From Amia ocellicauda (Eukaryota > Chordata > Actinopteri > Amiiformes > Amiidae), in NCBI RefSeq assembly GCF_036373705.1, contig NC_089867.1, forward strand, positions 24,599,823 through 24,663,822: DNA of 64,000 bases, in the 5' to 3' direction. A program made the translations under genes and the position numbers. This document shows, in pieces, positions 1-42,996 of the stretch (positions within the stretch are counted from its first letter, which is position 1; each line of letters opens with the position of its first letter). A model generated the notes under the pieces. It searched no databases and was not told the DNA's origin. It was given only the letters and a program-made list of their open reading frames with translations.

Positions 1-3000
1 GTTCTCAGTGTGTTAATGTGTGTGTGTGTCTGTGTGGCAGGTGTTCTCTGTGTTAATGTGTGTGTGTTTGTTGTGGCAGGTGTTCTCAGTGTGTTAATGT
101 GTGTGTGTGTCTGTGTGGCAGGTGTTCTCAGTGTGTTCATGTGTGTGTCTGTGTGGCAGGTGTTCTCAGTGTGTTAAGGTGTGTGTGTGTCTGTGTGGCA
201 GGTGTTCTCAGTGTGTTAATGTGTGTGTGTGTCTGTGTGGCAGGTGTTCTCAGTGTGTTAATGTGTGTGTGTTTGTTGTGGCAGGTGTTCTCAGTGTGTT
301 AAGGTGTGTGTGTTTCTTGTGGCAGGTGTTCTCAGTGTGTTAATGTGTGTGTGTGTCTGTGTGGCAGGTGTTCTCTGTGTTAATGTGTGTGTGTTTGTTG
401 TGGCAGGTGTTCTCAGTGTGTTAATGTGTGTGTGTGTCTGTGTGGCAGGTGTTCTCAGTGTGTTAAGGTGTGTGTGTTTCTTGTGGCAGGTGTTCTCAGT
501 GTGTTAATGTGTGTGTGTCTGTGTGGCAGGTGTTCTCAGTGTGTTAAGGTGTGTGTGTGTCTGTGTGGCAGGTGTTCTCAGTGTGTTCATGTGTGTGTCT
601 GTGTGGCAGGTGTTCTCAGTGTGTTAAGGTGTGTGTGTGTCTGTGTGGCAGGTGTTCTCAGTGTGTTAATGTGTGTGTGTGTCTGTGTGGCAGGTGTTCT
701 CAGTGTGTTAATGTGTGTGTGTCTGTGTGGCAGGTGTTCTCAGTGTGTTAAGGTGTGTGTGTTTCTTGTGGCAGGTGTTCTCAGTGTGTTAATGTGTGTG
801 TGTGTGTGTGGCAGGTGTTCTCAGTGTGTTAAGGTGTGTGTGTTTCTTGTGGCAGGTGTTCTCAGTGTGTTAATGTGTGTGTGTGTCTGTGTGGCAGGTG
901 TTCTCTGTGTTAATGTGTGTGTGTTTGTTGTGGCAGGTGTTCTCAGTGTGTTAATGTGTGTGTGTGTCTGTGTGGCAGGTGTTCTCAGTGTGTTAAGGTG
1001 TGTGTGTTTCTTGTGGCAGGTGTTCTCAGTGTGTTAATGTGTGTGTGTTTGTTGTGGCAGGTGTTCTCAGTGTGTTAAGGTGTGTGTGTTTCTTGTGGCA
1101 GGTGTTCTCAGTGTGTTAATGTGTGTGTGTGTCTGTGTGGCAGGTGTTCTCTGTGTTAATGTGTGTGTGTTTGTTGTGGCAGGTGTTCTCAGTGTGTTAA
1201 TGTGTGTGTCTGTGTGGCAGGTGTTCTCAGTGTGTTAATGTGTGTGTGTTTGTTGTGGCAGGTGTTCTCAGTGTGTTAAGGTGTGTGTGTTTCTTGTGGC
1301 AGGTGTTCTCAGTGTGTTAATGTGTGTGTGTCTGTGTGGCAGGTGTTCTCTGTGTTAATGTGTGTGTGTTTGTTGTGGCAGGTGTTCTCAGTGTGTTAAT
1401 GTGTGTGTGTGTCTGTGTGGCAGGTGTTCTTTCAGTGTGTTAATGTGTGTGTGTCTGTGTGGCAGGTGTTCTCAGTGTGTTAATGTGTGTGTGTCTGTGT
1501 GGCAGGTGTTCTCAGTGTGTTAATGTGTGTGTGTCTGTGTGGCAGGTGTTCTCAGTGTGTTCATGTGTGTGTTTGTTGTGGCAGGTGTTCTCTCTGTGTG
1601 TGTTTGTTGTGGCAGGTGTTCTCAGTGTGTTAAGGTGTGTGTGTCTGTGTGGCAGGTGTTCTCAGTGTGTTAAGGTGTGTGTGTCTGTGTGGCAGGTGTT
1701 CTCTGTGTTAATGTGTGTGTGTTTGTTGTGGCAGGTGTTCTCAGTGTGTTAAGGTGTGTGTGTTTCTTGTGGCAGGTGTTCTCAGTGTGTTAATGTGTGT
1801 GTGTCTGTGTGGCAGGTGTTCTCTGTGTTAATGTGTGTGTGTTTGTTGTGGCAGGTGTTCTCAGTGTGTTAATGTGTGTGTGTGTCTGTGTGGCAGGTGT
1901 TCTTTCAGTGTGTTAATGTGTGTGTGTTTGTGTGGCAGGTGTTCTCAGTGTGTTAATGTGTGTGTGTCTGTGTGGCAGGTGTTCTCAGTGTGTTAATGTG
2001 TGTGTGTCTGTGTGGCAGGTGTTCTCAGTGTGTTAATGTGTGTGTGTCTGTGTGGCAGGTGTTCTCAGTGTGTTAAGGTGTGTGTGTTTCTTGTGGCAGG
2101 TGTTCTCAGTGTGTTAAGGTGTGTGTGTGTTTCTTGTGGCAGGTGTTCTCTGTGTTAATGTGTGTGTGTTTGTTGTGGCAGGTGTTCTCAGTGTGTTAAG
2201 GTGTGTGTGTTTCTTGTGGCAGGTGTTCTCAGTGTGTTAATGTGTGTGTGTCTGTGTGGCAGGTGTTCTCTCGGTGTGTGTTTCTTGTGGCAGGTGTTCT
2301 CAGTGTGTTAATGTGTGTGTGTCTGTGTGGCAGGTGTTCTCAGTGTGTTTGTTGTGGCAGGTGTTCTCTCTGTGTGTGTTTGTTGTGGCAGGTGTTCTCA
2401 GTGTGTTAATGTGTGTGTGTTTGTTGTGGCAGGTGTTCTCAGTGTGTTAATGTGTGTGTGTGTGTCTGTGTGGCAGGTGTTCTCTGTGTTAATGTGTGTG
2501 TGTTTGTTGTGGCGGGTGTTCTCAGTGTGTTAAGGTGTGTGTGTTTCTTGTGGCAGGTGTTCTCAGTGTGTTAATGTGTGTGTGTCTGTGTGGCAGGTGT
2601 TCTCAGTGTGTTAATGTGTGTGTCTGTGTGGCAGGTGTTCTCAGTGTGTTAAGGTGTGTGTGTGTCTGTGTGGCAGGTGTTCTCAGTGTGTTAATGTGTG
2701 TGTGTTTGTTGTGGCAGGTGTTCTCAGTGTGTTAATGTGTGTGTGTCTGTGTGGCAGGTGTTCTCAGTGTGTTAATGTGTGTGTGTGTCTGTGTGGCAGG
2801 TGTTCTCAGTGTGTTAATGTGTGTGTGTTTGTTGTGGCAGGTGTTCTCAGTGTGTTAAGGTGTGTGTGTTTCTTGTAGCAGGTGTTCTCAGTGTGTTAAT
2901 GTGTGTGTGTGTCTGTGTGGCAGGTGTTCTCTGTGTTAATGTGTGTGTGTTTGTTGTGGCAGGTGTTCTCAGTGTGTTCATGTGTGTGTCTGTGTGGCAG

Positions 3001-6000
3001 GTGTTCTCAGTGTGTTAAGGTGTGTGTGTGTCTGTGTGGCAGGTGTTCTCAGTGTGTTAATGTGTGTGTGTGTCTGTGTGGCAGGTGTTCTCAGTGTGTT
3101 AATGTGTGTGTGTTTGTTGTGGCAGGTGTTCTCAGTGTGTTAAGGTGTGTGTGTTTCTTGTGGCAGGTGTTCTCAGTGTGTTAATGTGTGTGTGTGTCTG
3201 TGTGGCAGGTGTTCTCTGTGTTAATGTGTGTGTGTTTGTTGTGGCAGGTGTTCTCAGTGTGTTAATGTGTGTGTCTGTGTGGCAGGTGTTCTCAGTGTGT
3301 TAATGTGTGTGTGTTTGTTGTGGCAGGTGTTCTCAGTGTGTTAATGTGTGTGTGTCTGTGTGGCAGGTGTTCTCAGTGTGTTAATGTGTGTGTGTGTCTG
3401 TGTGGCAGGTGTTCTCAGTGTGTTAATGTGTGTGTGTTTGTTGTGGCAGGTGTTCTCAGTGTGTTAAGGTGTGTGTGTTTCTTGTAGCAGGTGTTCTCAG
3501 TGTGTTAATGTGTGTGTGTGTCTGTGTGGCAGGTGTTCTCTGTGTTAATGTGTGTGTGTTTGTTGTGGCAGGTGTTCTCAGTGTGTTCATGTGTGTGTCT
3601 GTGTGGCAGGTGTTCTCAGTGTGTTAAGGTGTGTGTGTGTCTGTGTGGCAGGTGTTCTCAGTGTGTTAATGTGTGTGTGTGTCTGTGTGGCAGGTGTTCT
3701 CAGTGTGTTAATGTGTGTGTGTTTGTTGTGGCAGGTGTTCTCAGTGTGTTAAGGTGTGTGTGTTTGTTGTGGCAGGTGTTCTCAGTGTGTTAATGTGTGT
3801 GTCTGTGTGGCAGGTGTTCTCAGTGTGTTAATGTGTGTGTGTTTGTTGTGGCAGGTGTTCTCAGTGTGTTAAGGTGTGTGTGTGTCTGTGTGGCAGGTGT
3901 TCTCAGTGTGTTAAGGTGTGTGTGTTTCTTGTGGCAGGTGTTCTCAGTGTGTTAAGGTGTGTGTGTGTTTGTTGTGGCAGGTGTTCTCAGTGTGTTAATG
4001 TGTGTGTGTGTCTGTGTGGCAGGTGTTCTCTGTGTTAATGTGTGTGTGTTTGTTGTTACGGGTGTTCTCAGTGTGTTAAGGTGTGTGTGTTTCTTGTGGC
4101 AGGTGTTCTCAGTGTGTTAATGTGTGTGTGTCTGTGTGGCAGGTGTTCTCAGTGTGTTAATGTGTGTGTGTGTCTGTGTGGCAGGTGTTCTCAGTGTGTT
4201 AATGTGTGTGTGTGTGTGTGGCAGGTGTTCTCAGTGTGTTAATGTGTGTGTGTTTGTTGTGGCAGGTGTTCTCAGTGTGTTAAGGTGTGTGTGTTTCTTG
4301 TGGCAGGTGTTCTCAGTGTGTTAATGTGTGTGTGTGTCTGTGTGGCAGGTGTTCTCTGTGTTAATGTGTGTGTGTTTGTTGTGGCAGGTGTTCTCAGTGT
4401 GTTAATGTGTGTGTGTGTCTGTGTGGCAGGTGTTCTTTCAGTGTGTTAATGTGTGTGTGTCTGTGTGGCAGGTGTTCTCAGTGTGTTAAGGTGTGTGTGT
4501 CTGTGTGGCAGGTGTTCTCTGTGTTAATGTGTGTGTGTTTGTTGTGGCAGGTGTTCTCAGTGTCTTAAGGTGTGTGTGTTTCTTGTGGCAGGTGTTCTCA
4601 GTGTGTTAATGTGTGTGTCTGTGTGGCAGGTGTTCTCAGTGTGTTAATGTGTGTGTGTTTGTTGTGGCAGGTGTTCTCAGTGTGTTAAGGTGTGTGTGTT
4701 TCTTGTGGCAGGTGTTCTCAGTGTGTTAATGTGTGTGTGTCTGTGTGGCAGGTGTTCTCAGTGTGTTAATGTGTGTGTGTCTGTGTGGCAGGTGTTCTCA
4801 GTGTGTTAATGTGTGTGTGTCTGTGTGGCAGGTGTTCTCAGTGTGTTAAGGTGTGTGTGTTTCTTGTGGCAGGTGTTCTCAGTGTGTTAAGGTGTGTGTG
4901 TTTCTTGTGGCAGGTGTTCTCAGTGTGTTAATGTGTGTGTGTCTGTGTGGCAGGTGTTCTCAGTGTGTTAAGGTGTGTGTGTTTCTTGTGGCAGGTGTTC
5001 TCAGTGTGTTAATGTGTGTGTGTGTCTGTGTGGCAGGTGTTCTCTGTGTTAATGTGTGTGTGTTTGTTGTGGCAGGTGTTCTCAGTGTGTTAATGTGTGT
5101 GTCTGTGTGGCAGGTGTTCTCAGTGTGTTAATGTGTGTGTGTTTGTTGTGGCAGGTGTTCTCAGTGTGTTAAGGTGTGTGTGTTTCTTGTGGCAGGTGTT
5201 CTCTGTGTTAATGTGTGTGTGTCTGTGTGGCAGGTGTTCTTTCAGTGTGTTAATGTGTGTGTGTCTGTGTGGCAGGTGTTCTCAGTGTGTTAATGTGTGT
5301 GTGTCTGTGTGGCAGGTGTTCTCAGTGTGTTAATGTGTGTGTGTCTGTGTGGCAGGTGTTCTCAGTGTGTTAATGTGTGTGTGTCTGTGTGGCAGGTGTT
5401 CTCAGTGTGTTAATGTGTGTGTGTTTGTTGTGGCAGGTGTTCTCAGTGTGTTAAGGTGTGTGTGTTTCTTGTGGCAGGTGTTCTCAGTGTGTTAATGTGT
5501 GTGTGTGTCTGTGTGGCAGGTGTTCTCTGTGTTAATGTGTGTGTGTTTGTTGTGGCGGGTGTTCTCAGTGTGTTAAGGTGTGTGTGTTTCTTGTGGCAGG
5601 TGTTCTCAGTGTGTTAATGTGTGTGTGTCTGTGTGGCAGGTGTTCTCAGTGTGTTAATGTGTGTGTGTCTGTGTGGCAGGTGTTCTCAGTGTGTTAAGGT
5701 GTGTGTGTTTCTTGTGGCAGGTGTTCTCAGTGTGTTAATGTGTGTGTGTGTGTCTGTGTGGCAGGTGTTCTCTGTGTTAATGTGTGTGTGTTTGTTGTGG
5801 CAGGTGTTCTCAGTGTGTTAATGTGTGTGTGTGTCTGTGTGGCAGGTGTTCTCAGTGTGTTAATGTGTGTGTGTGTCTGTGTGGCAGGTGTTCTCTGTGT
5901 TAATGTGTGTGTGTTTGTTGTGGCAGGTGTTCTCAGTGTGTTAATGTGTGTGTCTGTGTGGCAGGTGTTCTCAGTGTGTTAATGTGTGTGTGTTTGTTGT

Positions 6001-9000
6001 GGCAGGTGTTCTCAGTGTGTTAAGGTGTGTGTGTTTCTTGTGGCAGGTGTTCTCAGTGTGTTAATGTGTGTGTGTCTGTGTGGCAGGTGTTCTCTGTGTT
6101 AATGTGTGTGTGTTTGTTGTGGCAGGTGTTCTCAGTGTGTTAATGTGTGTGTGTGTCTGTGTGGCAGGTGTTCTTTCAGTGTGTTAATGTGTGTGTTTGT
6201 TGTGGCAGGTGTTCTCTCTGTGTGTTTGTTGTGGCAGGTGTTCTCAGTGTGTTAATGTGTGTGTGTGTCTGTGTGGCAGGTGTTCTCTGTGTTAATGTGT
6301 GTGTGTTTGTTGTGGCGGGTGTTCTCAGTGTGTTAAGGTGTGTGTGTCTGTGTGGCAGGTGTTCTCAGTGTGTTAATGTGTGTGTGTGTCTGTGTGGCAG
6401 GTGTTCTCAGTGTGTTAATGTGTGTGTGTCTGTGTGGCAGGTGTTCTCAGTGTGTTAATGTGTGTGTGTGTCTGTGTGGCAGGTGTTCTCAGTGTGTTAA
6501 TGTGTGTGTGTTTGTTGTGGCAGGTGTTCTCAGTGTGTTAAGGTGTGTGTGTTTCTTGTGGCAGGTGTTCTCAGTGTGTTAATGTGTGTGTTTGTTGTGG
6601 CAGGTGTTCTCTCTCTGTGTGTTTGTTGTGGCAGGTGTTCTCAGTGTGTTAATGTGTGTGTGTTTGTTGTGGCAGGTGTTCTCAGTGTGTTAAGGTGTGT
6701 GTGTCTGTGTGGCAGGTGTTCTCTGTGTTAATGTGTGTGTGTTTGTTGTGGCGGGTGTTCTCAGTGTGTTAAGGTGTGTGTGTTTCTTGTGGCAGGTGTT
6801 CTCAGTGTGTTAATGTGTGTGTGTCTGTGTGGCAGGTGTTCTCAGTGTGTTAATGTGTGTGTGTTTGTTGTGGCAGGTGTTCTCAGTGTGTTAAGGTGTG
6901 TGTGTGTCTGTGTGGCAGGTGTTCTCAGTGTGTTAATGTGTGTGTCTGTGTGGCAGGTGTTCTCAGTGTGTTAATGTGTGTGTGTGTCTGTGTGGCAGGT
7001 GTTCTCAGTGTGTTAATGTGTGTGTGTTTGTTGTGGCAGGTGTTCTCAGTGTGTTAAGGTGTGTGTGTTTCTTGTGGCAGGTGTTCTCAGTGTGTTAATG
7101 TGTGTGTGTGTCTGTGTGGCAGGTGTTCTCTGTGTTAATGTGTGTGTGTTTGTTGTGGCAGGTGTTCTCAGTGTGTTAATGTGTGTGTGTGTGTCTGTGT
7201 GGCAGGTGTTCTTTCAGTGTGTTAATGTGTGTGTGTCTGTGTGGCAGGTGTTCTCTCTGTGTGTGTTTGTTGTGGCAGGTGTTCTCTCTGTGTGTTTGTT
7301 GTGGCAGGTGTTCTCTCTGTGTGTTTGTTGTGGCAGGTGTTCTCTCTGTGTTTGTTGTGGCAGGTGTTCTCAGTGTGTTAATGTGTGTGTGTTTGTTGTG
7401 GCAGGTGTTCTCAGTGTGTTAAGGTGTGTGTGTCTGTGTGGCAGGTGTTCTCAGTGTGTTAATGTGTGTGTGTTTGTTGTGGCAGGTGTTCTCAGTGTGT
7501 TAAGGTGTGTGTGTGTCTGTGTGGCAGGTGTTCTCAGTGTGTTAATGTGTGTGTCTGTGTGGCAGGTGTTCTCAGTGTGTTAATGTGTGTGTGTGTCTGT
7601 GTGGCAGGTGTTCTCAGTGTGTTAATGTGTGTGTGTTTGTTGTGGCAGGTGTTCTCAGTGTGTTAAGGTGTGTGTGTTTCTTGTGGCAGGTGTTCTCAGT
7701 GTGTTAATGTGTGTGTGTGTCTGTGTGGCAGGTGTTCTCTGTGTTAATGTGTGTGTGTTTGTTGTGGCAGGTGTTCTCAGTGTGTTAATGTGTGTGTGTG
7801 TGTCTGTGTGGCAGGTGTTCTCTCTGTGTGTGTTTGTTGTGGCAGGTGTTCTCTCTGTGTGTTTGTTGTGGCAGGTGTTCTCAGTGTGTTAATGTGTGTG
7901 TGTCTGTGTGGCAGGTGTTCTCTGTGTTAATGTGTGTGTGTTTGTTGTGGCAGGTGTTCTCAGTGTGTTAATGTGTGTGTCTGTGTGGCAGGTGTTCTCA
8001 GTGTGTTAATGTGTGTGTGTTTGTTGTGGCAGGTGTTCTCTGTGTTAATGTGTGTGTCTGTGTGGCAGGTGTTCTCAGTGTGTTAAGGTGTGTGTGTTTC
8101 TTGTGGCAGGTGTTCTCAGTGTGTTAATGTGTGTGTATGTGTCTGTGTGGCAGGTGTTCTTTCAGTGTGTTAATGTGTGTGTTTGTTGTGGCAGGTGTTC
8201 TCTCTGTGTGTGTTTGTTGTGGCAGGTGTTCTCTCTGTGTGTTTGTTGTGGCAGGTGTTCTCTCTGTGTGTTTGTTGTGGCAGGTGTTCTCAGTGTGTTA
8301 ATGTGTGTGTGTTTGTTGTGGCAGGTGTTCTCAGTGTGTTAATGTGTGTGTGTCTGTGTGGCAGGTGTTCTCTGTGTTAATGTGTGTGTGTTTGTTGTGG
8401 CAGGTGTTCTCAGTGTGTTAAGGTGTGTGTGTTTCTTGTGGCAGGTGTTCTCAGTGTGTTAATGTGTGTGTGTGTCTGTGTGGCAGATGTTCTCAGTGTG
8501 TTCATGTGTGTGTTTGTTGTGGCAGGTGTTCTCTCTGTGTGTGTTTGTTGTGGCAGGTGTTCTCAGTGTGTTAAGGTGTGTGTGTCTGTGTGGCAGGTGT
8601 TCTCAGTGTGTTAAGGTGTGTGTGTCTGTGTGGCAGGTGTTCTCTGTGTTAATGTGTGTGTGTTTGTTGTGGCAGGTGTTCTCAGTGTGTTAAGGTGTGT
8701 GTGTTTCTTGTGGCAGGTGTTCTCAGTGTGTTAATGTGTGTGTGTGTCTGTGTGGCAGGTGTTCTCTGTGTTAATGTGTGTGTGTTTGTTGTGGCAGGTG
8801 TTCTCAGTGTGTTAATGTGTGTGTGTCTGTGTGGCAGGTGTTCTCAGTGTGTTAATGTGTGTGTCTGTGTGGCAGGTGTTCTCAGTGTGTTAATGTGTGT
8901 GTGTCTGTGTGGCAGGTGTTCTCAGTGTGTTAATGTGTGTGTGTTTGTTGTGGCAGGTGTTCTCAGTGTGTTAATGTGTGTGTGTCTGTGTGGCAGGTGT

Positions 9001-9340
9001 TCTCAGTGTGTTAATGTGTGTGTGTCTGTGTGGCAGGTGTTCTCAGTGTGTTAATGTGTGTGTGTCTGTGTGGCAGGTGTTCTCAGTGTGTTCATGTGTG
9101 TGTTTGTTGTGGCAGGTGTTCTCTCTGTGTGTGTTTGTTGTGGCAGGTGTTCTCAGTGTGTTAAGGTGTGTGTGTGTCTGTGTGGCAGGTGTTCTCAGTG
9201 TGTTAAGGTGTGTGTGTTTCTTGTGGCAGGTGTTCTCAGTGTGTTAATGTGTGTGTGTTTGTTGTGGCAGGTGTTCTCAGTGTGTTAATGTGTGTGTGTT
9301 TGTTGTGGCAGGTGTTCTCAGTGTGTTAATGTGTGTGTTT
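1..9340. repeat. TG-rich minisatellite (about 41 bp unit) in a ZBTB48 intron
   Basis: An uninterrupted tandem array of about 41 bp units starts before the window and stops just before the first ZBTB48 exon. The unit begins GTGTTCTCAGTGTGTTAATG and ends in one of three tails: TTTGTTGTGGCAG, TTTCTTGTGGCAG or TCTGTGTGGCAG. Variants include units of about 38 bp lacking CAG (GTGTTCTCTGTG), units of about 30 bp (GTGTTCTCTCTGTGTG), and AATG, AAGG or CATG in the middle. At 41 bp per unit there are roughly 230 copies. The unit matches the true intron-exon junction at 9,350/9,351, so it seems to have been born from that splice acceptor. All open frames inside are artefacts of the repeat. Copy number may be wrong in the assembly. 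The + strand is G/T-rich with almost no A or C outside the GGCAG and TTAA positions. Confidence 0.97.
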
Positions 9341-9350
9341 CTTGTGGCAG

Positions 9351-11672
9351 GTGTTCTCGTGCTCTCAGTGCACATTGACTTTCCGCCGGCGGTTGGAGCT
9401 GCGTCTGCACATGGTCAGCCACACCGGAGAAATGCCCAACAAGGTACCGGCCAGTTCCTAATATTCATATTATTGTTATTTGACCGATGTAGTGTGTACC
9501 CCCGTGCCTGACGCCTCTGTGTGTCCTTCTGTCTGTGTACCAGTGCACCTCGTGTCCAGAGCAGTTCATGCAGAAGAAGGACTTGAAGAGCCACCTAATC
9601 AAGGTTCACGGCGCGCCCAAACCCCACGCGGTGAGCGCACAACACCCTACTCCCTGCTGTTGTCGGGATGTGTGTTCTGGGGAAATGGTTAATGTTGATT
9701 GTGCGTTGTGTGTGTGTGTCGTGCTCAGTGCTCGCTGTGTCCCAAGTGCTTCCTGTCCCGCACCGAGCTGCGACTGCACGAGGCCTCCAAGCACCGTGGG
9801 GAGAAGCTGTTCGTGTGCGAGGAGTGCGGACACCGCGCCTCCAGCCGCAACGGCCTGCAGATGCACATCAAGGCCATCCACCGGTGAGCAGGGGCAGCTG
9901 GGGTGGATAGGGGGAGAGGGGCAGGATGTGTTGTCAATGTGGGGGAATCCATAGACTGGTCTTTTGTTACCCTATAAAAAAAATATTGAGCAGTATTGTG
10001 AGTGACTTCCTCTCTAAGTGCTGTGCATCAACCTATTGCATGCTGGGAGAATAGGAGGGTATGTTTTGGCATAGGAGGGCAATTGTGCCGGCCTTGTGCC
10101 CAGGGTGGTCTGGGGTGGTTTAGTGTGTGAAGCAGCAGGAACCCCGCACTGATGACTCTGCTGGGGGCTGTTTGTGTGTTTGTGCGGCAGCAACGAGAGG
10201 CCCTTTGTGTGTGAGTTCTGCAGCCACGCCTTCACGCAGAAGGCCAACCTGAACATGCACCTGCGCACACACACCGGCGAGAAGCCCTTCCAGTGCCACC
10301 TGTGCGGCAAGACCTTCCGCACACAGGGTAACCCCTCTGCTACTGACACACACACACACTCACACACACCTGAATCTGAGTCTCACACCTGAACTACAGC
10401 GATACGGGCAATGGGAAAGCCTGGGGTTCAGGGACTTGTGCTTGTCCTTCCTCCTGATTGTGTGTGTGTTACAGCCAGCCTCGACAAGCACCACCGCACA
10501 CACACGGGCGAGCGGCCGTTCCGCTGTGAATTCTGCGAGCAGCGCTTCACGGAGAAGGGGCCTCTGCTGAGACACGTGGCCAGCAAGCACCAGGAGGGCC
10601 GGCCGCACTACTGCCACATCTGCAGCAAGACCTTCAAAGGTAACCACCGCACTGAAACACACACACAGCGGTCATGTGACTGACGATCGTCCGACCGGTC
10701 ATCTTTACCTGCCCTGTCCCCTTGTTTCTGCCCCCCAGCCATCGAGCAGCTGCGGGTCCATGTGCGCCGACACAAGGGGATGAGGAAGTTTGAGTGCTCC
10801 GAGTGCGGCTACAAGTTCACCAGACAGGTACGGTGAATCTGTGAGGATGTTTTTATTATACCCTTTGAACGAACTTCTGATTTAAAATGGGGGTTCGATT
10901 CTGGAAACCGAGCCGGTGGGTTCGAGGTAGATGCCAAACCCAGTTTTTTGTGGTCAAAATTTGCCAGCAGCTGTTTCAGGGGACTCTGAACCACATGTGT
11001 GTCCCATCTTCAGTTTAACAAGATGTGTATAGATACAGACGGGTGACAAATTAAAGGAAAAACCTGAATCAATGAGTGGAGGAACATATCGAATGCAGAT
11101 GCCTCCTAACAGCTGTACTGCATGATACAATTAAGCAATTAACATCCTGTCATGCTCTGTGGCATGTATAAACATGCTGAGCAGGCCCAGTTGACCTCGA
11201 TTTGTCACCTGTCTGTATATACACACACACATTTCATAATAATGTACTCCTAAAAACCGAAGTGAAACCAGTTTAAATCTCTCCCCCTCTCCAGGCCCAC
11301 CTGCGGCGGCACTCCCAGATACACAACCGGGTGGAGAACTACAACCCTCGGCAGAGGAGGCTGCGCAACCTGGTGGTGGAGGACGAGAAGGCCGAGGTGG
11401 AGGCGGGGGCGGTCCTGCCCGGCGAGGAGGCGGTGGAGGGCGAGGGCACGCTGCCCGGCGACATCATCAGCGTCATGATCCCGTCCGGCACCATCGTGGT
11501 GGAGGAGGTGGTCTCCACGCAGGGGTGCGGCACCAGGGGGGACGAGCCCGGCTTCACGGTGGCCGACGTCATGGAGCAGACCCTGCTGGTGACCGGGGCG
11601 TACCCGCTGCACCACGCCGCGGTCGTCACCGAGGAGCTGGTGGAGGGGGGGGGCACAGTGGATAAGGCCTGA
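9351..11672 (+). CDS. ZBTB48: ZBTB48/TZAP, 3' part: nine C2H2 zinc fingers and C-terminal tail
   Basis: Seven exons join in frame: 9351-9443, 9544-9630, 9729-9883, 10191-10327, 10475-10639, 10739-10827 and 11295-11672 (stop TGA). They encode 367 residues. The nine C2H2 fingers begin with CSQC, CTSC, CSLC, CEEC, CEFC, CHLC, CEFC, CHIC and CSEC. After the last finger comes the arm [20 protein letters not shown], the signature by which I recognise ZBTB48, followed by an acidic, Val/Gly-rich tail. Human ZBTB48 is 688 aa with a BTB domain and eleven fingers, so the BTB domain and the first two fingers should lie upstream of the window. The protein is a nuclear factor that binds TTAGGG telomeric repeats through its last fingers and arm, and limits telomere length. 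The first exon here opens with GTG immediately after a GGCAG acceptor that is itself part of the minisatellite unit. The gene is convergent with KLHL21, as in human. Confidence 0.93.
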
Positions 11673-15178: not shown

Positions 15179-18100
15179 TCAGTGGGCCTGGTTGAGGTTC
15201 TGGTTGTTGTTGTGGTTCTGCAGGGCCTGGGTGCGGTAGTGGTGCCGGTGCAGCTGGATGGCGTTGACCTCGGCGTTGTCCAGCGCCGGCTCGAACACGC
15301 TGGGCACCAGGGGCATGAACTGGCGGAAGATGCTGACGCTGCCATGCCAGAAGGTGGGCTGGGGCAGGCGGCCCGCGTGGCTCCAGGTGCGGGTGGTCGG
15401 GTCGTAGGCCTCCACCACGTCCGACAGCTCGAAGGTGTTGTCGTAGCCCCCCGACACGAAGATGCGCCCGCCCAGGGGGGTCACGCTGCCGCCGACGTGG
15501 ACCTGGGGGCAAAGACAGACAACAGTGTAGCTCACACACACTGCGGCACAGAGCGAGGGGCAGGAAGCCACGGCAGGGGTGGAAACAAGGGCAGCTTTGC
15601 AAAATAGTCTGAATCATTGAAGGCTTTTCCAAATTGCAGGCTCATAATATCTAATGTCTTCATTTTTTCTTACAATACACCTTAAAAACAAAAAGAACTG
15701 CAAGTATATAAATATTTTATCTGAAACATTTCTATGAGCTAATCTTGGCCCTTAGGCATTTGTTGTTTTTTGAGTTACCCCAAGACGACAATCTTTGACT
15801 TTCCTTTGAGTAAAAACAAAGGATATCAAAACCTACGCACAACTTAACAAAAAGGAGCAAAACTGAATGAAGGCCAAAGATTTTTACAGGTTGAGGACAA
15901 TTCCCGTTTCCTTCCCCACCGAGTAAACCACTCTGGACAGGGCTGTGATGCAGAAGGGACTTATGGGTACCTGAGTCATCGGGGGGATCTTGTCCCACTC
16001 GTTCTTCTGGGGGTTGTAGACGTCGACCTCCGCCGAGTCGTCCCTGGAACACAAGGCCAAGACAGTCACCTCACAACGTGCCTCTCTCCCTCCTCCAGCA
16101 CCCACTGAAAAACCCCAAACCCACACTTCCTGTACAGACTGAACTCTGAAACGCAACTTCCTGTCTTGCTCTGTGTAGAAATTCCCATCTACAGGGACAA
16201 TTCAATTAAGGAATAGTTAGACCTGCTGCAGGAATCATTGCAAGATGTCCGCAGCCCCTCCCTCCACCATGTACCTTATGTTTTTACCTGATGAAGTAGA
16301 TGAGTCCATTGAGCGTGACCGTCTTGGGGGCGAAGGACCAGGGCGGCAGCTGTCCGCAATTGACCAGGGCCCAGCGGTCGGTGTCGGGGTCGTAGCTCTG
16401 AATGACCATGGTCTCCTGGCCGGCCAGCGAGCCGATGGCGTAGAGGCGGCCCCGGCAGGTGGTGGTGGAGCAGTTGTCCATGGGGTGCAGCATGGGCCGC
16501 AGCCCCTCCCAGCAGTCCAGCGCGTGGTCGTAGCGCTCGGTGCTGTCGGACGCTACCACGTACAGCTGGCCCTTCAGCACCACGGAGCTGTGGTACTCGC
16601 GCGGCTTCAGCATGGGCGACACCTCCGTCCACTCGTTCACGCTCGAGTTGTAGCGCCACACACCATCGTAGAGCCGAGAGCCGTCAGATCCCCCTGCGCC
16701 GGGAAGGAGAGAGACGCGTATCACTGTGGTGTTGCCACCTGTGTGCCTGGTAATGCATATGCATATTGATGGGTATACTGTCAAAAGTGTAGAATTGAGA
16801 ACAAGGGCAGTGATGTTCAGACTGAACAATGCACAAGTTAGAGCTCATCTGGATACTGTGGACAGTTCTGGACTCCACACTTCAAGAAAGATATCGAGGC
16901 AGTTCAGACGAGAGCAAGCAGACTTATTCCAGGTCTGAAGGGAACGTCCTACTGAGAGACTGAGGACCTGAACCTTTTCACCTGGAACAGAGGACACACG
17001 CAGCCGGGGACACAAATGGAAATTGGGCTTCAAGGCATTCAAGACAGAAAACAGGAGACACGTCTTCACACAGAGAGGCGTCACAATCTGAACAAACTCC
17101 CCAGCGATGTGGCTGAAGAGACAATTTGGGAACATTCAAAAACAGACTGGATAGGATCCTTGGACCACTTAGTTATTAATGGACACCAAACGAGCACGAT
17201 GGGTCGAAAGGCCTCCTCTCGATTGGACACTTTCTTATGTTCTTACCATTTCAAAAGAGCATATTTAGCTTAAGAGCCGTCTAAGAGAGTTTGTCTTTTG
17301 TTTTTAAGTCTGGTCCCGGATAGCCACAATCCTGCTGGTCTTACAGACACGTTCAGAGCTTTACTGGGGCAAACGAAGACCATTAATGACTGAAGAGATG
17401 GAGTAACAGCCCAGGTACACTGGAGACTAGAGGACTATGTCTCTCCAGGAGACTTATAGGTCTTATATAAACCATTTCTACCCATATAGAAGACTTACCC
17501 TAGGTATTAACTATAAATTTGAATACCAGTACAGTCTGATAGATCTTAGAGGGCATACTCTCCAATAAGTCAATACAGGAGGAGTTTCAAAACCATTTTT
17601 GTCTGGAGGACACAATATTCTCTTTGTTTGTTGTCTCTAGGGGGCTCCTGTGATATCTGCATTTACTTGGCCCCAGCAGTACAAAATCTTTGGACGTACA
17701 TGGTGGCTAGGGGGGCTGTCCCTCAAATGGCCTGTTATGGTTATGGTCTCACACAGCTGTGGCTGTCCGCTATACCCCTGGGGTCCCCAGGGAGCAGCTC
17801 AAAGGGCTCTCCTGACACCCCCCCATTTACGTCCCTGACTTTGGAAAGACCAGCAGGACTGTTGGTCGGGGCAGCTTAGCGGCTGCGCAATCCTGTGACC
17901 GCAGCAGCGTCTCTGGCAGAACACAGCGTCCCCCCTCGCCCCTCCCTGGTTTAGACATGTATTTATACTCGAGCAGCCCGTTGTTTAAAAACACAGGGGC
18001 CTGGCGAATGTCACAGCTTTCCCCATCAATACACAACACAGCAAAACGCCAGGCAAAGCACAGAGCAAAAACACTCCTCTCTTTCTGGATCTCAGCTGTA

Positions 18101-19709
18101 CCACAAAAACAACTTGACACGGAAAACTTCCCAAAGAAACTCATTCCACAGAGACCACCACAATGTGGACACAGTGCAACTTTTAAATAAAAGTAAAATT
18201 CATTATTTTAGATACATTTACATTACATTACATTTACGTTTAAGGGTATTACATCATATTTGTGCACAGACCTGCCAGTTAGCTTAAGGTTAAAACTCCG
18301 TTCACTCTAACGCGATGTGACATTGCAAGGTAGCACATCTGAAAAGTGTAAATTCCTACCATACTTTTTGTACGGAAGCCACGGACAGCACTGAGTCGTG
18401 ACTCGTGCGTCTTAAAAAAAGAGCTACTCCAGAAACGGCCAGCCTGCCACCGAGATATGTTAATGACTTAATGAATGTTTGAATGGTATATAAGTTTGCC
18501 TGTGCCGGATACAAGCAGAGCCTGTGATGAAATTAGCATTCATTCATTCATAAACTACTATTTAAATATTATTTCATAAGATACTGTTGCATTACTCTCA
18601 TGATTGTGATCCCAGAAGCCCCAGACGGTACCTGGACGCCGCCCCGCTCCCCCCAGCGCCCCGCATCTCCCAGGTCACCTACCTGTGACGTACATGTCGT
18701 TGCCCAGCGCGGCGATGCTGTAGCCGCCACCCAGGTGGTCGGGGAACTCGGCCAGGTAGCGCCACTGTCCGGTCTGGGGGTTGTAGCAGTCCACGGTCAC
18801 CAGCTCGTCGCAGTCCTGGTCGCAGCCGCCCACCACCACCAGGATCTCGGCAAGGCCGGTGGAGGGGCGCGGCCGCATGCGGTGGCAGGGCTGGTCGTGC
18901 CGGTCGTACTCGCAAGACTGGAAGGCGCGCGCCTCGCTGACCAGGCGCAGGCAGGGCGGGGACAGGTACACAAGGGGGTCGCTCTCCACGTGGGCCAGCA
19001 GGTAGAAGCGGCGCACAAAGGGCAGCCGCACCTGCTGCAGCAGCTCAGGCCAGTAGTGCAGCCGGCGCTGGGGGCTGGCCTTCACCCACCGTGCGGCGAT
19101 CTGGTAGGCCGTCTCCTCCTTGTCCACGCAGAGCCCGTCGTCCGACACGAACTCCAGCAGCCGCTTCCAGGGCAGCCGCTCGAAGTCCTTGCCCTTGGCC
19201 AGCTCCACAATGTTCTTGAGCACAAAGAGGCGCGCGCTCTCGGCCAGGCCGCGGCAGGCGTAGGCCTCGGCGAAGTCCTGGATCTCCAGGCAGTTGGACA
19301 CGTCCAGCCGCTGCTCCAGGAAGGCGCAGCAGGCCTCCTTCACCGAGGGGAACTGGAAGAGGTCGGCGGTCTTGAGCAGCAGGTCCACGTTGTCCTGTGT
19401 GACGGTGACGCGGCCCGTGTAGCAGAAGTCCACCAGCAGCCCCAGCAGCTCGGCCGACACCTCGTGCAGCTCCACGCGGTCCATGGCGCTCTCGCGCAGT
19501 GTGCCGGCGAACATGGCCTTGAAGTAGTTGCTGGCGGCGGCCAGGACGGTGCGGTGGCAGGCGAACTCACGGCCCTCTGCGCACAGCGTCACGTCGAAGA
19601 ACTTGCACTCGGCGCGCAGCTCGTGGATGCCGCGGAGCAGGTTGAGGGCATGGGAGGAGTCGAAGAAAGGCAGCGTGGAGGCCTGCGTCTGCACCACGGG
19701 CTTCTCCAT
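15179..19709 (-). CDS. KLHL21: KLHL21, kelch-like adaptor of CUL3 ubiquitin ligase
   Basis: Four coding exons on the minus strand join in frame: 18683-19709, 16288-16693, 15971-16043 and 15179-15502. They encode 609 aa (human 597). The ATG at 19709 opens [24 protein letters not shown] domain (about 25-135, with FFDVTL and [17 protein letters not shown]) mediates dimerisation and CUL3 binding. A BACK domain follows (about 140-245), then kelch repeats from about residue 285, with motifs such as [40 protein letters not shown] and [20 protein letters not shown]. The C-terminus is Asn/Gln-rich ([14 protein letters not shown]). In mammals KLHL21-CUL3 ubiquitinates Aurora B and directs it to the anaphase spindle midzone. 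All splice sites are GT-AG: donors ACAG|GTAGGTG, TCAG|GTAAAAA and TCAG|GTACCC. Intron 1 (about 2 kb) holds a dead LINE fragment. A likely 5' UTR acceptor lies at 19,789. Confidence 0.97.
16840..17245 (+). mobile_element. Dead 3' fragment of a non-LTR retrotransposon (CR1/L2-like)
   Basis: It lies antisense to KLHL21 in its intron 1. Plus-strand translation gives pieces typical of a LINE reverse-transcriptase C-terminus: [17 protein letters not shown], then [11 protein letters not shown], then a stop, and later [15 protein letters not shown] before another stop. The segment ends with CGAGCACGATGGGTCGAAAG and a TTTCTTATGTTCTT tail, a 3' end I associate with abundant fish LINEs. Stops and an internal deletion show it is inactive. 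The exact family is not resolved. Confidence 0.7.
18208..18250 (-). repeat. Possible SINE tail (ACATTT/ATTAC repeats)
   Basis: ACATTTACATTACATTACA followed by TTTACG resembles the simple-repeat tail of fish SINEs read in reverse. No diagnostic head is visible, so this is only a hint. Confidence 0.25.
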
Positions 19710-19787
19710 TATGACGTCTCTCTCTCTATCTGTGGGTGTCTCGGTTTGTCCCCTTCTCTGTCCGGGAGTCTCAGGACGCTGTGCTCA

Positions 19788-34700: not shown

Positions 34701-36109
34701 TCCTGGTCAAGACAATCTCCTGAACTCCAAACTGAATGTCTGAATGGGAAAGAAAGGTGATTTAAGCAATTTTGAGCGTGGCATGGTTGTTGGTGCCAGA
34801 CGGGCCGGTCTGAGTATTTCACAATCTGCTCAGTTACTGGGATTTTCATGCACAACCATTTCTAGGGTTGACAAAGAATGGTGTGAAAAGGGAAAAACAT
34901 CCAGTATGCGGCAGTCCTGTGGGCGAAAATGCCTTGTTGATGCTAGAGGTCAGAGGAGAATGGGCCGACTGATTCAAGCTGATAGAAGAGCAACTTTGAC
35001 TGAAATAACCACTCGTTACAACCGAGGTATGCAGCAAAGCATCTGTGAAGCCACAACACGTACAACCTTGAGGCGGATGGGCTACAACAGCAGAAGACCC
35101 CACCGGGTACCACTCATCTCCACTACAAATAGGAAAAAGAGGCTACAATTTGCACAAGCTCACCAAAATTGGACAGTTGAAGACTGGAAAAATGTTGCCT
35201 GGTCTGATGAGTCTCGATTTCTGTTGAGACATTCAGATGGTAGAGTCAGAATTTGGCGTAAACAGAATGAGAACATGGATCCATCATGCCTTGTTACCAC
35301 TGTGCAGGCTGGTGGTGGTGGTGTAATGGTGTGGGGGATGTTTTCTTGGCACACTTTAGGCCCCTTAGTGCCAATTGGGCATCGTTTAAATGCCACGGCC
35401 TACCTGAGCATTGTTTCTGACCATGTCCATCCCTTTATGACCACCATGTACCCATCCTCTGATGGCTACTTTCAGCAGGATAATGCACCATGTCACAAAG
35501 GTCGAATCATTTCAAATTGGTTTCTTGAACATGACAATGAGTTCACTGTACTAAACTGGCCCCCACAGTCACCAGATCTCAACCCAATAGAGCATCTTTG
35601 GGATGTGGTGGAACGGGAGCTTCGTGCCCTGGATGTGCATCCCACAAATCTCCATCAACTGCAAGATGCTATCCTATCAATATGGGCCAACATTTCTAAA
35701 GAATGCTTTCAGCACCTTGTTGAATCAATGCCACGTAGAATGAAGGCAGTTCTGAAGGCGAAAGGGGGTCAAACACAGTATTAGTATGGTGTTCCTAATA
35801 ATACTTTAGGTGAGTGTATATTGCACACCTGTCCCTCAATGGGGACGCTTGGCACTGACCCGCTCTCCTCTCTCCCCCGCAGACGACGACTCCTGGGACC
35901 TGGTGACGTGTTTCTGCATGAAGCCCTTCGCCGGGAGACCCATGATCGAGTGCAACGAGTGCAACACCTGGATCCACCTGTCCTGCGCCAAGATCCGCAA
36001 GTCCAACGTCCCCGAGGTCTACGTCTGCCAGAGGTGCAGGGACTCCAAATTCGACATCCGCCGCTCCAACCGGTCGCGCATGGGCTCCCGGAAACTCTTC
36101 CTGGACTAG
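28782..36109 (+). CDS. PHF13: PHF13 (SPOC1), PHD-finger chromatin protein
   Basis: Four exons join in frame: 28782-28817, 32011-32112, 33835-34540 and 35883-36109. They encode 356 aa (human 300). Exon 2 has the conserved [13 protein letters not shown] and [11 protein letters not shown] blocks. Exon 3 carries a Ser/Pro-rich linker, a lysine-rich nuclear localisation signal (about 124-139, [16 protein letters not shown]), three PsiKxE sumoylation-type motifs (VKAEPE, IKQEPA, FKEEPQ) and the conserved [12 protein letters not shown]. Exon 4 encodes the PHD finger, with [18 protein letters not shown] and [18 protein letters not shown], and ends RKLFLD. In mammals the PHD reads H3K4me3 and the protein acts in chromatin compaction, germ cells and DNA repair. 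All introns are GT-AG. Intron 3 (34541-35882) would be only about 119 bp without its transposon. The linker is longer than in human. Confidence 0.97.
29679..29745. repeat. (TG)n microsatellite in PHF13 intron 1
   Basis: An interrupted TG run with TATG and CTG interruptions. A second, shorter TG run ending in GAGAGAGA lies near 30,096-30,130. Confidence 0.85.
30240..31060. other. GC-rich, CpG-dense block in PHF13 intron 1
   Basis: This block has long overlapping open frames on both strands, a usual by-product of high GC, and none matches a family I know. It includes three tandem copies of an 11 bp unit, GGGAGGACCCG, at about 30,652-30,682. It could be an internal CpG island or alternative promoter. 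Confidence 0.4.
32163..32190. repeat. (TTTC)n microsatellite in PHF13 intron 2
   Basis: TTTC tetranucleotide repeats, slightly interrupted, directly after the exon 2 donor region. Confidence 0.7.
34596..35816 (+). mobile_element. Complete Tc1-like DNA transposon in PHF13 intron 3
   Basis: A 1,221 bp element is flanked by TA target duplications (34594-34595 and 35817-35818). It has 29 bp terminal inverted repeats, 34596-34624 and 35788-35816, starting CACTCACCTAAAGG and ending GGAACACC, with one mismatch. It carries one intact transposase frame in the same direction as PHF13. Near-identical termini, intact TSDs and an uninterrupted frame suggest recent insertion. It lies 53 bp after the exon 3 donor and 64 bp before exon 4. 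Confidence 0.96.
34744..35784 (+). CDS. Tc1/mariner transposase, DD36E type, intact
   Basis: A 346-residue frame with no stops or shifts. The N-terminal third has a paired-type helix-turn-helix region (residues about 8-60, with [20 protein letters not shown]) and a second one up to about 125, which bind the inverted repeats. The catalytic triad is visible: D155 in WSDESRF, D246 in FQQDNAPCH and E283 in [11 protein letters not shown]. There are 36 residues between the second D and the E, so this is DD36E rather than the usual Tc1 DD34E. That spacing is described for the Incomer group of Tc1/mariner elements. It should catalyse cut-and-paste transposition at TA dinucleotides. Transcription would be in sense with PHF13. 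Confidence 0.95.
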   Translation: MGKKGDLSNFERGMVVGARRAGLSISQSAQLLGFSCTTISRVDKEWCEKGKTSSMRQSCGRKCLVDARGQRRMGRLIQADRRATLTEITTRYNRGMQQSICEATTRTTLRRMGYNSRRPHRVPLISTTNRKKRLQFAQAHQNWTVEDWKNVAWSDESRFLLRHSDGRVRIWRKQNENMDPSCLVTTVQAGGGGVMVWGMFSWHTLGPLVPIGHRLNATAYLSIVSDHVHPFMTTMYPSSDGYFQQDNAPCHKGRIISNWFLEHDNEFTVLNWPPQSPDLNPIEHLWDVVERELRALDVHPTNLHQLQDAILSIWANISKECFQHLVESMPRRMKAVLKAKGGQTQY

Positions 36110-40734: not shown

Positions 40735-42996
40735 ATGCCCAAGAGTTGCTCTGCCTATAACTGTACGAACAGGTACAGCAGCAAGAACCCGGATCTCACC
40801 TTTCACAGGTAAACGTGACTAATATTATTGCTATCATGGTTATCAGTAGTTTTATTAGAGTGCAGTATCGTTCTTCACATTGAGACAAAACACAAAGCAT
40901 AAAACATAGCACACCCCTATCTCACAGATATGTCTACTGGGGGCAGCTTTGTAATATTGATACCACCATCATTCTCATTATTCTCATCTCCAGCTCTTCA
41001 TTAACCAGCACCCCCCGTCCCCCTCTCTGTGCGTCTCTGGCAGGTTCCCCCTCAGCAAGCCCACCGTGCTGAAGGAATGGCTGCACAACATCGCCCGTGA
41101 CGACTTCCAGCCCAACCGGCACATGGTCCTCTGCTCCCAGCACTTCACCCCCGACTGCTTCAACAGCTACGGCAACCGCAAGAACCTGCTGTGGAACGCC
41201 GTGCCCACCGTCTTCTCCTTCCCCCCGCTCAGCTCCAAGGCGAGGCTCGCGTGCGGCCCCTTCCTCGTGATCCCACGCTCTGTGGCCCCCCGTTCTGGAG
41301 AGTGTCACTGCTTCACTGTCAGACATGTGACAAACGCTCCAATTAGGTCCCCAGGTCTGACGCACCGGGAGTGTAGTCTGCATGAAAACACAGCGGCGAC
41401 AGAGTGGAGCGCCCCACCATCTCAATACCGCTGCCTGTAAGAGGCGCAGAACAAATACAGTGCAGGAATAAGGACCCCAGTGAGAGAGTCATGGACCCCC
41501 TACCCTGCTGGTTTGTGTTCCAACCATACTCTCAATTACTTAATTGAACCCTTAATTGAACTACTAATGTCCTAAATCAGAGCCTTTTAATGATTTTAAA
41601 CAGTAGAGGGTTTAAGTTAAGTATAGACTTGTATAAATAACTTATTAAGGAACCAAGTCTTTTATTACACAATATAAAAAGTCAAATCTAAGCTGATTGT
41701 TACTTCAGTTAAGGGTTCAATTAAGTAAGAGCTCGGTTGGAACAAAAACCAGCAGGGTAGGGGGACCTCCAGGGCCAGGGCTGAGAACCACTGCATTACA
41801 GTACCAGTGCTGTGTTTGGAGCAGGGTATGAGGTATGACACAGGCGTGCTGCAGTGTGATGTGTGGTGTGCTCTCGAGGGGAACGTCTGCTTCTCTGTTC
41901 GTTCATCCCTTCATTAAAGCATTTCACACCCAAAACAGCGGCAAATCCCAGACGTCTGGAGCGTCTTTATCCCCTGCGTTTTTTTATATATATTTTTAAC
42001 TCTGTATCTATTCGGTCACGAGGACATCCCCCCTGCCGTCGTGCTCTGGGTTTGTGTGTCGTCTGAATCTCAGATCTCTCGCTTCTCATCTTGCAAACCA
42101 TTTTTTGGTCTGTCTTCGGTTCTGTCCCTTCTCTGCAACGTGCTGCCAGCTGTGAGACTCCAGCCCCCGGGTCCGTAGGATCACGCCGTCTCTGTTGTTT
42201 CCCCCCAGAGGAAGAAATCTCGCAAGAGGCTGCGGGCCGAGTCTCCGGCGGTGGTGCCGCGGTGGGAGGAGCTCTGGCTGGAGGAGGTGGGGCCGCAGCA
42301 GGAAGAGGTGGGGCCAGAATGCCGGGAACAGCGGGAGGGGCCTGTCGCTATGGCAGCTGCAGAATGCAGAGATGACCAAAGCTCTGACTCCGCCCCCCAG
42401 GTAAATTACCTAATTGAACTCTAATTGAAGTAACAACCTGCTTAGATTTGACTTTTTAAATTGTGTAATAAAATAGTTGGTTCTTTAATACAATTTCTAT
42501 ACTTAAATTAAAACTCCTACTGTTTAAATAATGAAAAGGCTCCGATTCAGGACATTATTAGTTAAATTAAGGTTCAATTAAGTCTTGTGTCCCCCCCATC
42601 CCGGTGACCTCCCTGGGGTGCTTTCCGATCATCTGTCTGTGGTTTCTGCCCCAGGAGCTCTGGCCCTGCGACCACAGCTACTCCCTGGCAGAGCCCGGCG
42701 CGGTCAAGGCCCGTCTCTTCAGCACCCTGGAGGCCAACGAGCGGCTGCGCAAGAGGTTGAAGGTCAAGTGCGAGGTCATCCGCAAGATGAGCCAGAAGCT
42801 GCAGGCCGCGCACCGGGAGCTGGGCACCCTGCGGGCCGAGCTGAGCCAAGCCAGGGCCGGACCGGGGCAGGCGCCGCCCACGCGCACTCCAGAGACGGCA
42901 GGGGAGCGGCCCGTGGACCTGAGCCGGGCCGAGGAGGACCATGGACCGGAGGGGGCCCCGAAGAGCCCCAAACAGGAGCTGTGCAGCCAGGACTGA
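40735..42996 (+). CDS. THAP3: THAP3, THAP-domain transcription cofactor
   Basis: Four exons join in frame: 40735-40808, 41044-41239, 42209-42400 and 42655-42996. They encode 267 aa (human 239). The THAP zinc module spans residues 1-85: MPKSCSAYNC (C5, C10), C55 and H58 in VLCSQHF, W37, and the closing AVPTVF (77-82). It binds DNA. Exon 3 encodes a basic then Glu-rich linker (RKKSRKRLRAESP). Exon 4 holds the HCF-1 binding motif DHSY (160-163), followed by a coiled coil (about 173-218, LFSTLEANERLRKRLKVK). THAP3 in mammals recruits HCF-1 and OGT to cell-cycle promoters such as RRM1. Intron 2 appears to start with GC (AAG|GCGAGG), the only site that keeps both the THAP end and the phase of exon 3. 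Intron 3 is filled mainly by a fold-back repeat. The ATG at 40735 is supported by the conserved MPKSC start. Confidence 0.95.
41492..41790 (+). mobile_element. Fold-back (MITE-like) element, copy 1, THAP3 intron 2
   Basis: Its arms are inverted repeats: CCCTACCCTGCTGGTTTGTG on the left and GGAACAAAAACCAGCAGGG on the right, with the inner arms TTAATTGAACCCTTAATTG and GGTTCAATTAAG. The core has GAGCCTTTTAATGATTTTAA and AAATCTAAGCTGATTG. It has no coding capacity. The same element occurs at 42.4 and 48.3 kb. Confidence 0.8.
42402..42596 (-). mobile_element. Fold-back element, copy 2 (inverted), making up THAP3 intron 3
   Basis: Reverse complement of copies 1 and 3, sharing in turn CTAATTGAAGTAACA, TTAGATTTGACTTTTTAAAT, AAACTCCTACTGTTTAAAT and GGCTCCGATTCAGGACAT. 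The outer arms are missing. Similarity begins within about 7 bp of the exon 3 donor and runs to about 58 bp before exon 4, so roughly three quarters of the 254 bp intron is this element. Confidence 0.8.

Follow-up and report, generated by a model that had tools for sequence, protein, structure and literature searches.

Minisatellites whose units carry splice sites have been described in two human genes that are the closest relatives, in organization, of the locus presented here. Turri, Cuin and Porter are said to have described in 1995 a minisatellite of IFI6 that provides multiple splice donors, in an array of far fewer units than that of ZBTB48. In published accounts of IFI6 (6-16, G1P3), its minisatellite gives multiple splice donors, and two downstream units are used as such (PMC4526556; PMC2572611). 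The VNTR of ABCA7 intron 18 is reported to consist of ~12 to 427 units of 25 bp (298-10,678 bp), the first GT being the exon 18 donor; a longer VNTR leads to more skipping of the in-frame exon 19 (132 nt) and to lower expression, and one unit can be retained via a cryptic donor, a retention described as unchanged with array length (PMC5954066). In CFTR, a TG tract of intron 8 lies by exon 9, and TDP-43 is reported to silence this next exon, six or more UG repeats reportedly being required for it to bind with high affinity (PMC3985631).

Intron 3 of ZBTB48 in Amia ocellicauda shares features with each of these systems. Like IFI6, it contains minisatellite units bearing splice sites, which are donors in the human gene and acceptors in ZBTB48. 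Like ABCA7, it has an in-frame exon directly after the array; the ABCA7 unit carries a donor, whereas the ZBTB48 unit carries the acceptor of the exon that follows the array, together with a branch point and coding bases. Like CFTR, it is UG-rich in the stretch that immediately precedes a 3' splice site, in the form of copies of a whole acceptor instead of a dinucleotide tract. Introns can also be created by tandem duplication of AGGT, and an AG|GT segment is duplicated in tandem in both cases; at ZBTB48, however, it is an existing intron that has grown, and its strong donor does not belong to the array. Intron gain by this route was rejected, as the donor (GTG|GTGAGT) stands 47 nt before the array and outside the unit. 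The C. elegans repeat CeRep25B was also considered as a precedent and set aside, since the source describes motifs near alternative exons and not copied splice sites (PMC4039745). No acceptor-side precedent was found among the matches listed from the open-licence literature, which weakly supports the absence of one. We propose that the ZBTB48 array is a new, acceptor-side variant of the splice-site-bearing minisatellites (of the IFI6/ABCA7 kind, broadly defined), with a unit made of a whole acceptor module and of coding bases.

Anatomy of the array and of its host gene

The window, i.e. the whole stretch of 64,000 nt that was analysed, was joined to the 40 kb that precede it in the same 988-Mb assembly (contig C24), and the 104 kb of joined sequence contain no N. 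ZBTB48 intron 3, which precedes coding exon 4, is 20,968 nt long and is nearly entirely composed of a tandem repeat of its own 3' end. It extends from the donor GTG|GTGAGT (window -11617), found in the joined upstream sequence, to the acceptor at 9350, and its 3' part occupies positions 1..9350 of the window (+ strand). From the donor, 47 unique nt lead to the array, which fills the remaining 20,921 bases before the acceptor, or 99.8% of the intron. The other eight introns of the gene measure 98, 99, 100, 121, 147, 206, 307 and 467 nt.

The complete array spans positions -11570 to 9358 relative to the window (C24:24588252-24609180, + strand), its last 8 nt lying inside exon 4, and the sequence is unique on both sides. 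Its window portion (1..9358, + strand) was delimited by TRF and unit splitting, TRF giving a period of 41, 232.1 copies and 87% matches. The sequence GGCAGGTGTTCTC is present in 220 copies in positions 1-9400 and in none in the remainder of the window. In total, the array comprises 524 units of 27-58 nt, of which 487 measure 38-44 nt (most commonly 41, 40, 42 or 39 nt), this copy number coming from a single assembly in which identical blocks could have been miscounted. The units belong to 47 sequence types arranged in a varied order. The array is thus a minisatellite in the usual sense (tandem units of 10-100 bp), whose units carry the splice site of the exon that it abuts. The initial annotation had proposed that about 230 decoy acceptors precede a ZBTB48 exon: the array and its acceptors are confirmed, but under half of the array had been seen, 11.6 kb more being located upstream.

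The coding exons of the gene, whose borders were set by eye from consensus and frame, yield an open frame of 748 codons when joined by consensus borders, intron 3 joining its flanking coding exons. The encoded protein has a BTB domain followed by C2H2 fingers that match HKR3/TZAP, which assigns it to ZBTB48/HKR3/TZAP; among the 117 PDB sequences matched are HKR3 (2dlq, 8jq0) and TZAP (telomere zinc finger-associated protein, 5yj3), the rest being other zinc finger proteins. Coding exon 4 (9351..9443) is 93 nt long, in phase 0 at both ends, and encodes one C2H2 finger (VFSCSQC...); its first 8 nt are those common to the array units. It is followed, also on the + strand, by coding exons 5 (9544..9630), 6 (9729..9883), 7 (10191..10327), 8 (10475..10639), 9 (10739..10827) and 10 (11295..11672, to the stop codon). 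To look for another haplotype or a duplicate of the gene, the C-terminal exon was used as query; the only match among the two candidates scored was the ZBTB48 locus itself, and this possibility was discarded.

Several other features are present in the window. A BTB-BACK-Kelch gene (16287-19784, - strand) is, judging by position, perhaps KLHL21, and a THAP domain is encoded at 40961-41437 (+ strand); with ZBTB48, we take these to resemble the gene order of human 1p36.31. A stop-free frame of 346 residues at 34744-35781 (+ strand) has the HTH_Tnp_Tc3_2 and DDE_3 domains of a Tc1/mariner-type transposase, and TRF detects tandem repeats of various periods, TG-rich or AT-rich, clustered at 52960-53500.

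Acceptor content of the units and singularity of the last one

CAG directly precedes 514 of the 524 units, and GTGTTCTC, the first 8 bases of exon 4, opens 507 of them in register, 16 of the others matching 7 bases and one beginning with A; as the units were split on [GA]TGTTCT, this 8-base agreement between exon and units is partly by construction. As no unit exceeds 58 nt, no unit start was skipped by this split. Six other coding exons served as a control: none of the six has a copy of its initial 8 bases in the preceding 5 kb. Counting the true site, 359 of 515 acceptors have a strict yUnAy branch-point motif whose A falls between -27 and -19. Most array units retain a complete acceptor, consisting of a branch-point motif, a short TG/T tract and CAG|G. 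The unit tails had been described as all pyrimidine/TG-rich and ending in GGCAG. The window portion has 228 GGCAG boundaries, but not every tail resembles that of the true site: in a 522-unit split, which merges two pairs of units relative to the 524-unit count, 84 end in TTTCTTGTGGCAG, 262 in GTCTGTGTGGCAG and 148 in TTTGTTGTGGCAG.

Splice sites were scored with Shapiro-Senapathy matrices and the branch-point consensus, both in approximate form. The 514 decoy acceptors have a mean score of 6.11 bits (SD 0.93), compared with 7.98 for the true site; on this score alone, 83 decoys tie with the true site and 3 exceed it. Elsewhere in the window there are 3,518 AGs, of which 2.0% reach the score of the true site and 5.0% the decoy mean. 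The other acceptors of ZBTB48 (seven of the eight were scored, that of exon 2 being left out) range from 3.18 to 12.02 bits, four of them being under the decoy mean. Those at 9544, 9729, 10191 and 10475 have TG-rich tracts and low scores (3.18-5.22 bits), and TG-rich acceptors seem to be usual for this gene.

The true acceptor reads TTTCTTGTGGCAG|GTGTTCTCG and opens the exon at 9351-9443. The last unit (9312..9350, + strand) combines a TTAAT branch-point motif, with its A at -22, and the TTTCTTGTGGCAG tract, and its exact sequence is unique within the array. Among the units with a TTTCTT tract (522-unit split), 77 carry TTAAG, 4 carry TTAAT, including the last unit, and 3 carry neither. Because these units nearly all have TTAAG instead of TTAAT, only 5 of 515 acceptors, true site included, combine the strict motif with a score at least equal to that of the true site, a comparison that was made post hoc and is descriptive, not a test. 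The other four are located at -11300, -11060, -10780 and -8310, the nearest one being 17,661 nt upstream of the true site. Furthermore, only the last unit abuts the remainder of exon 4 and the exon 4 donor. The view that the splicing machinery must pick the last of a series of identical copies is thus not supported in this form: the last unit is distinguishable, as one of five out of 515 by score and branch point, and it alone adjoins the exon. Its oddity may nevertheless be an array-edge effect, the first two units at the far end being also singletons. As for the decoys close to the exon, they keep their AG, the two nearest ones also keep the TTAAT motif, and they score about equal to or above several real ZBTB48 acceptors.

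Splicing to the decoys was then evaluated in silico. For 375 of the 514 decoys, the frame stops after exactly 5 codons (VFSVC, then TAA), as predicted from the standard unit, and the natural stop is reached from none of the 514, in agreement with the prediction that any decoy would truncate the protein. The shorter units do run into the next unit, as also predicted, but every decoy still meets a stop. Among 420 TYTCAG sites, one passed a loose read-through criterion, but with an insertion of 70 nt it falls out of frame. The ten decoys nearest exon 4 would give exons of 132 to 487 nt. As exon 4 is 93 nt long and in phase 0 at both ends, its skipping would remove one zinc finger in frame and leave a readable protein. 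The exon 4 donor (AAG|GTACCG, window 9444) is, with 4.51 bits, the weakest of the seven scored in the gene, and such a weak donor would favour exon 4 skipping.

Origin and growth of the array

That the array is an amplified intron-exon junction, as initially proposed, is well supported. The exon start carried by 507 of the 524 units is conserved in HKR3 (PDB 2dlq, which we take to be the mouse protein): the HKR3 chain reads NCMNRSEQVFTCSVC where the Amia gene reads NCMNRAEVVFSCSQC, i.e. VFTC versus VFSC. Since the shared exon start belongs to old, conserved coding sequence (VF[T/S]C is also present in HKR3), copying ran from exon to array, and the reverse direction, from array into exon, is ruled out by the HKR3 protein. 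With one unit, intron 3 would be of 94 nt (47+47), and we infer an ancestral one-unit intron of about this length. A weak lead is that, with a gap of 6 nt, the first unit and the exon have TCAGTG in common past the shared 8 bases.

Runs of 56, 35, 35 and 33 units recur exactly, as identical stretches of 2,262, 1,372, 1,428 and 1,345 nt, at offsets of 63, 138, 138 and 75 units, respectively. These exact blocks of 1.3-2.3 kb suggest a recent change in copy number, by unequal exchange or a similar process, or else an assembly error. The latter would mean a real array much shorter than the assembled one, inflated by duplicated blocks. The identical blocks, that of 2,262 nt among others, and the use of one assembly are in its favour, but 47 unit types in varied order, the absence of N in the joined sequence and the unique sequence on both flanks make such an inflation quite improbable.

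The unit is restricted to this locus as far as exact matches are concerned: the 22-base unit core is found 388 times on the + strand and never on the - strand of the 988-Mb assembly, 388 copies being counted at the locus, and no other locus with this exact 22-mer exists in the assembly. In 170 kb sampled at 17 places, in the rest of the window and in 28 kb upstream, TRF (88 rows) gave no array with a period of at least 10 and a length of at least 300 bp. As this sample amounts to ~0.02% of the genome, it tells no more than that arrays of this kind are uncommon.

Possible consequences for ZBTB48 splicing

We consider it rather probable that amplification of the junction has produced an intron of decoy 3' splice sites, the last unit of which is distinguishable, with some leakage to decoys and some skipping of exon 4. 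The 3' end of a short intron would have been amplified in tandem, along with the initial 8 bases of coding exon 4, into a 21-kb minisatellite, its latest growth occurring through duplication of the 1.3-2.3 kb blocks, which are observed, by a process that their identity suggests. Each branch point would scan to its own AG, so that the choice of an acceptor would amount to that of a unit. Definition of exon 4 from its donor would favour the units near the exon and, among these, branch point and tract would be best combined in the last one. ZBTB48 is probably still expressed, since its last unit is distinguishable and alone adjoins a definable exon with a donor. Some of the near decoys probably leak, giving truncated transcripts predicted to be prone to NMD, and the UG richness of the array probably favours skipping of exon 4 in frame, by analogy with CFTR exon 9 and ABCA7 exon 19. 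An unbroken UG run of at least 12 nt is found in 122 of the 524 units, the runs being shorter in 402 and of 9 nt in the last unit; as about six UGs are reported to be needed for high TDP-43 affinity, these mostly short runs count against the UG/TDP-43 part of this explanation. In ABCA7, exon skipping changes with array length but the use of a unit as a splice site is reported not to, which also counts against it, as decoy use would not be expected to rise with the number of decoys.

A possible, though less favoured, alternative is that the array is a neutral passenger, a junction-derived minisatellite without measurable effect on ZBTB48, exon definition always taking the last acceptor and the decoys remaining silent. 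The open frame of 748 codons is consistent with it, as is the ordinary style of the units in this gene, four of its seven other scored acceptors being TG-rich and under the decoy mean. In zebrafish, zbtb48 knock-outs are reported to show no obvious abnormality over two generations (PMC11846949), so that ZBTB48 may tolerate reduced output and weak constraint could let the array persist. Against silent decoys stand the features of those near the exon, namely their intact AG, the TTAAT motif of the nearest two and scores that rival those of several real ZBTB48 acceptors, and the similar human array of ABCA7 is reported to alter splicing (PMC5954066). The array could also generate poison exons, its acceptors being paired with donors inside it to be spliced in as truncating cryptic exons. 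The TTAAG variant of the unit creates the donor-like site AAG|GTGTGT, present 120 times in the array with 9.0 bits; these sites outscore six of the seven scored ZBTB48 donors, which range from 4.51 to 9.15 bits (seven of nine, those of exons 1 and 2 being left out). They form, with the acceptors, 862 pairs 15-300 nt apart, of which 837 contain a premature stop and 25 are open. These pairs are predicted from sequence with approximate matrices, and cryptic exons silenced by TDP-43 typically have UG-rich flanks; we regard this outcome as rather unlikely. As to recursive splicing, by which each CAG|GT would act as a ratchet point for stepwise removal of the 21-kb intron, the 513 copies of CAG|GTGTTC in the array would provide the sites, but the regenerated donor GTG|GTGTTC reaches only 0.76 bits and CAG|GTGTTC 3.8, versus 4.51-9.15 for seven donors of the gene (approximate matrix), and we hold it to be highly improbable.

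A further reading is that the array acts as a length-dependent splicing dial: its size would set the shares of correct, decoy-truncated and finger-less in-frame ZBTB48, and selection would keep the branch point and the strong tract in the last acceptor. We find this reading doubtful. The initial annotation had likewise suggested that copy number could tune ZBTB48 output.

The choice among near-identical 3' splice sites is usually studied in minigenes with few copies. The Amia gene offers a natural series of more than 500 near-identical 3' splice sites in an open-frame gene, with graded variants of branch point and tract. Every decoy fails in its frame, and the skipping of exon 4 would be readable. 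The gene constitutes a striking natural experiment on 3' splice-site choice, and RNA from the species could show the weight of branch point, tract, distance and exon definition, as well as that of array length, to be compared with ABCA7.
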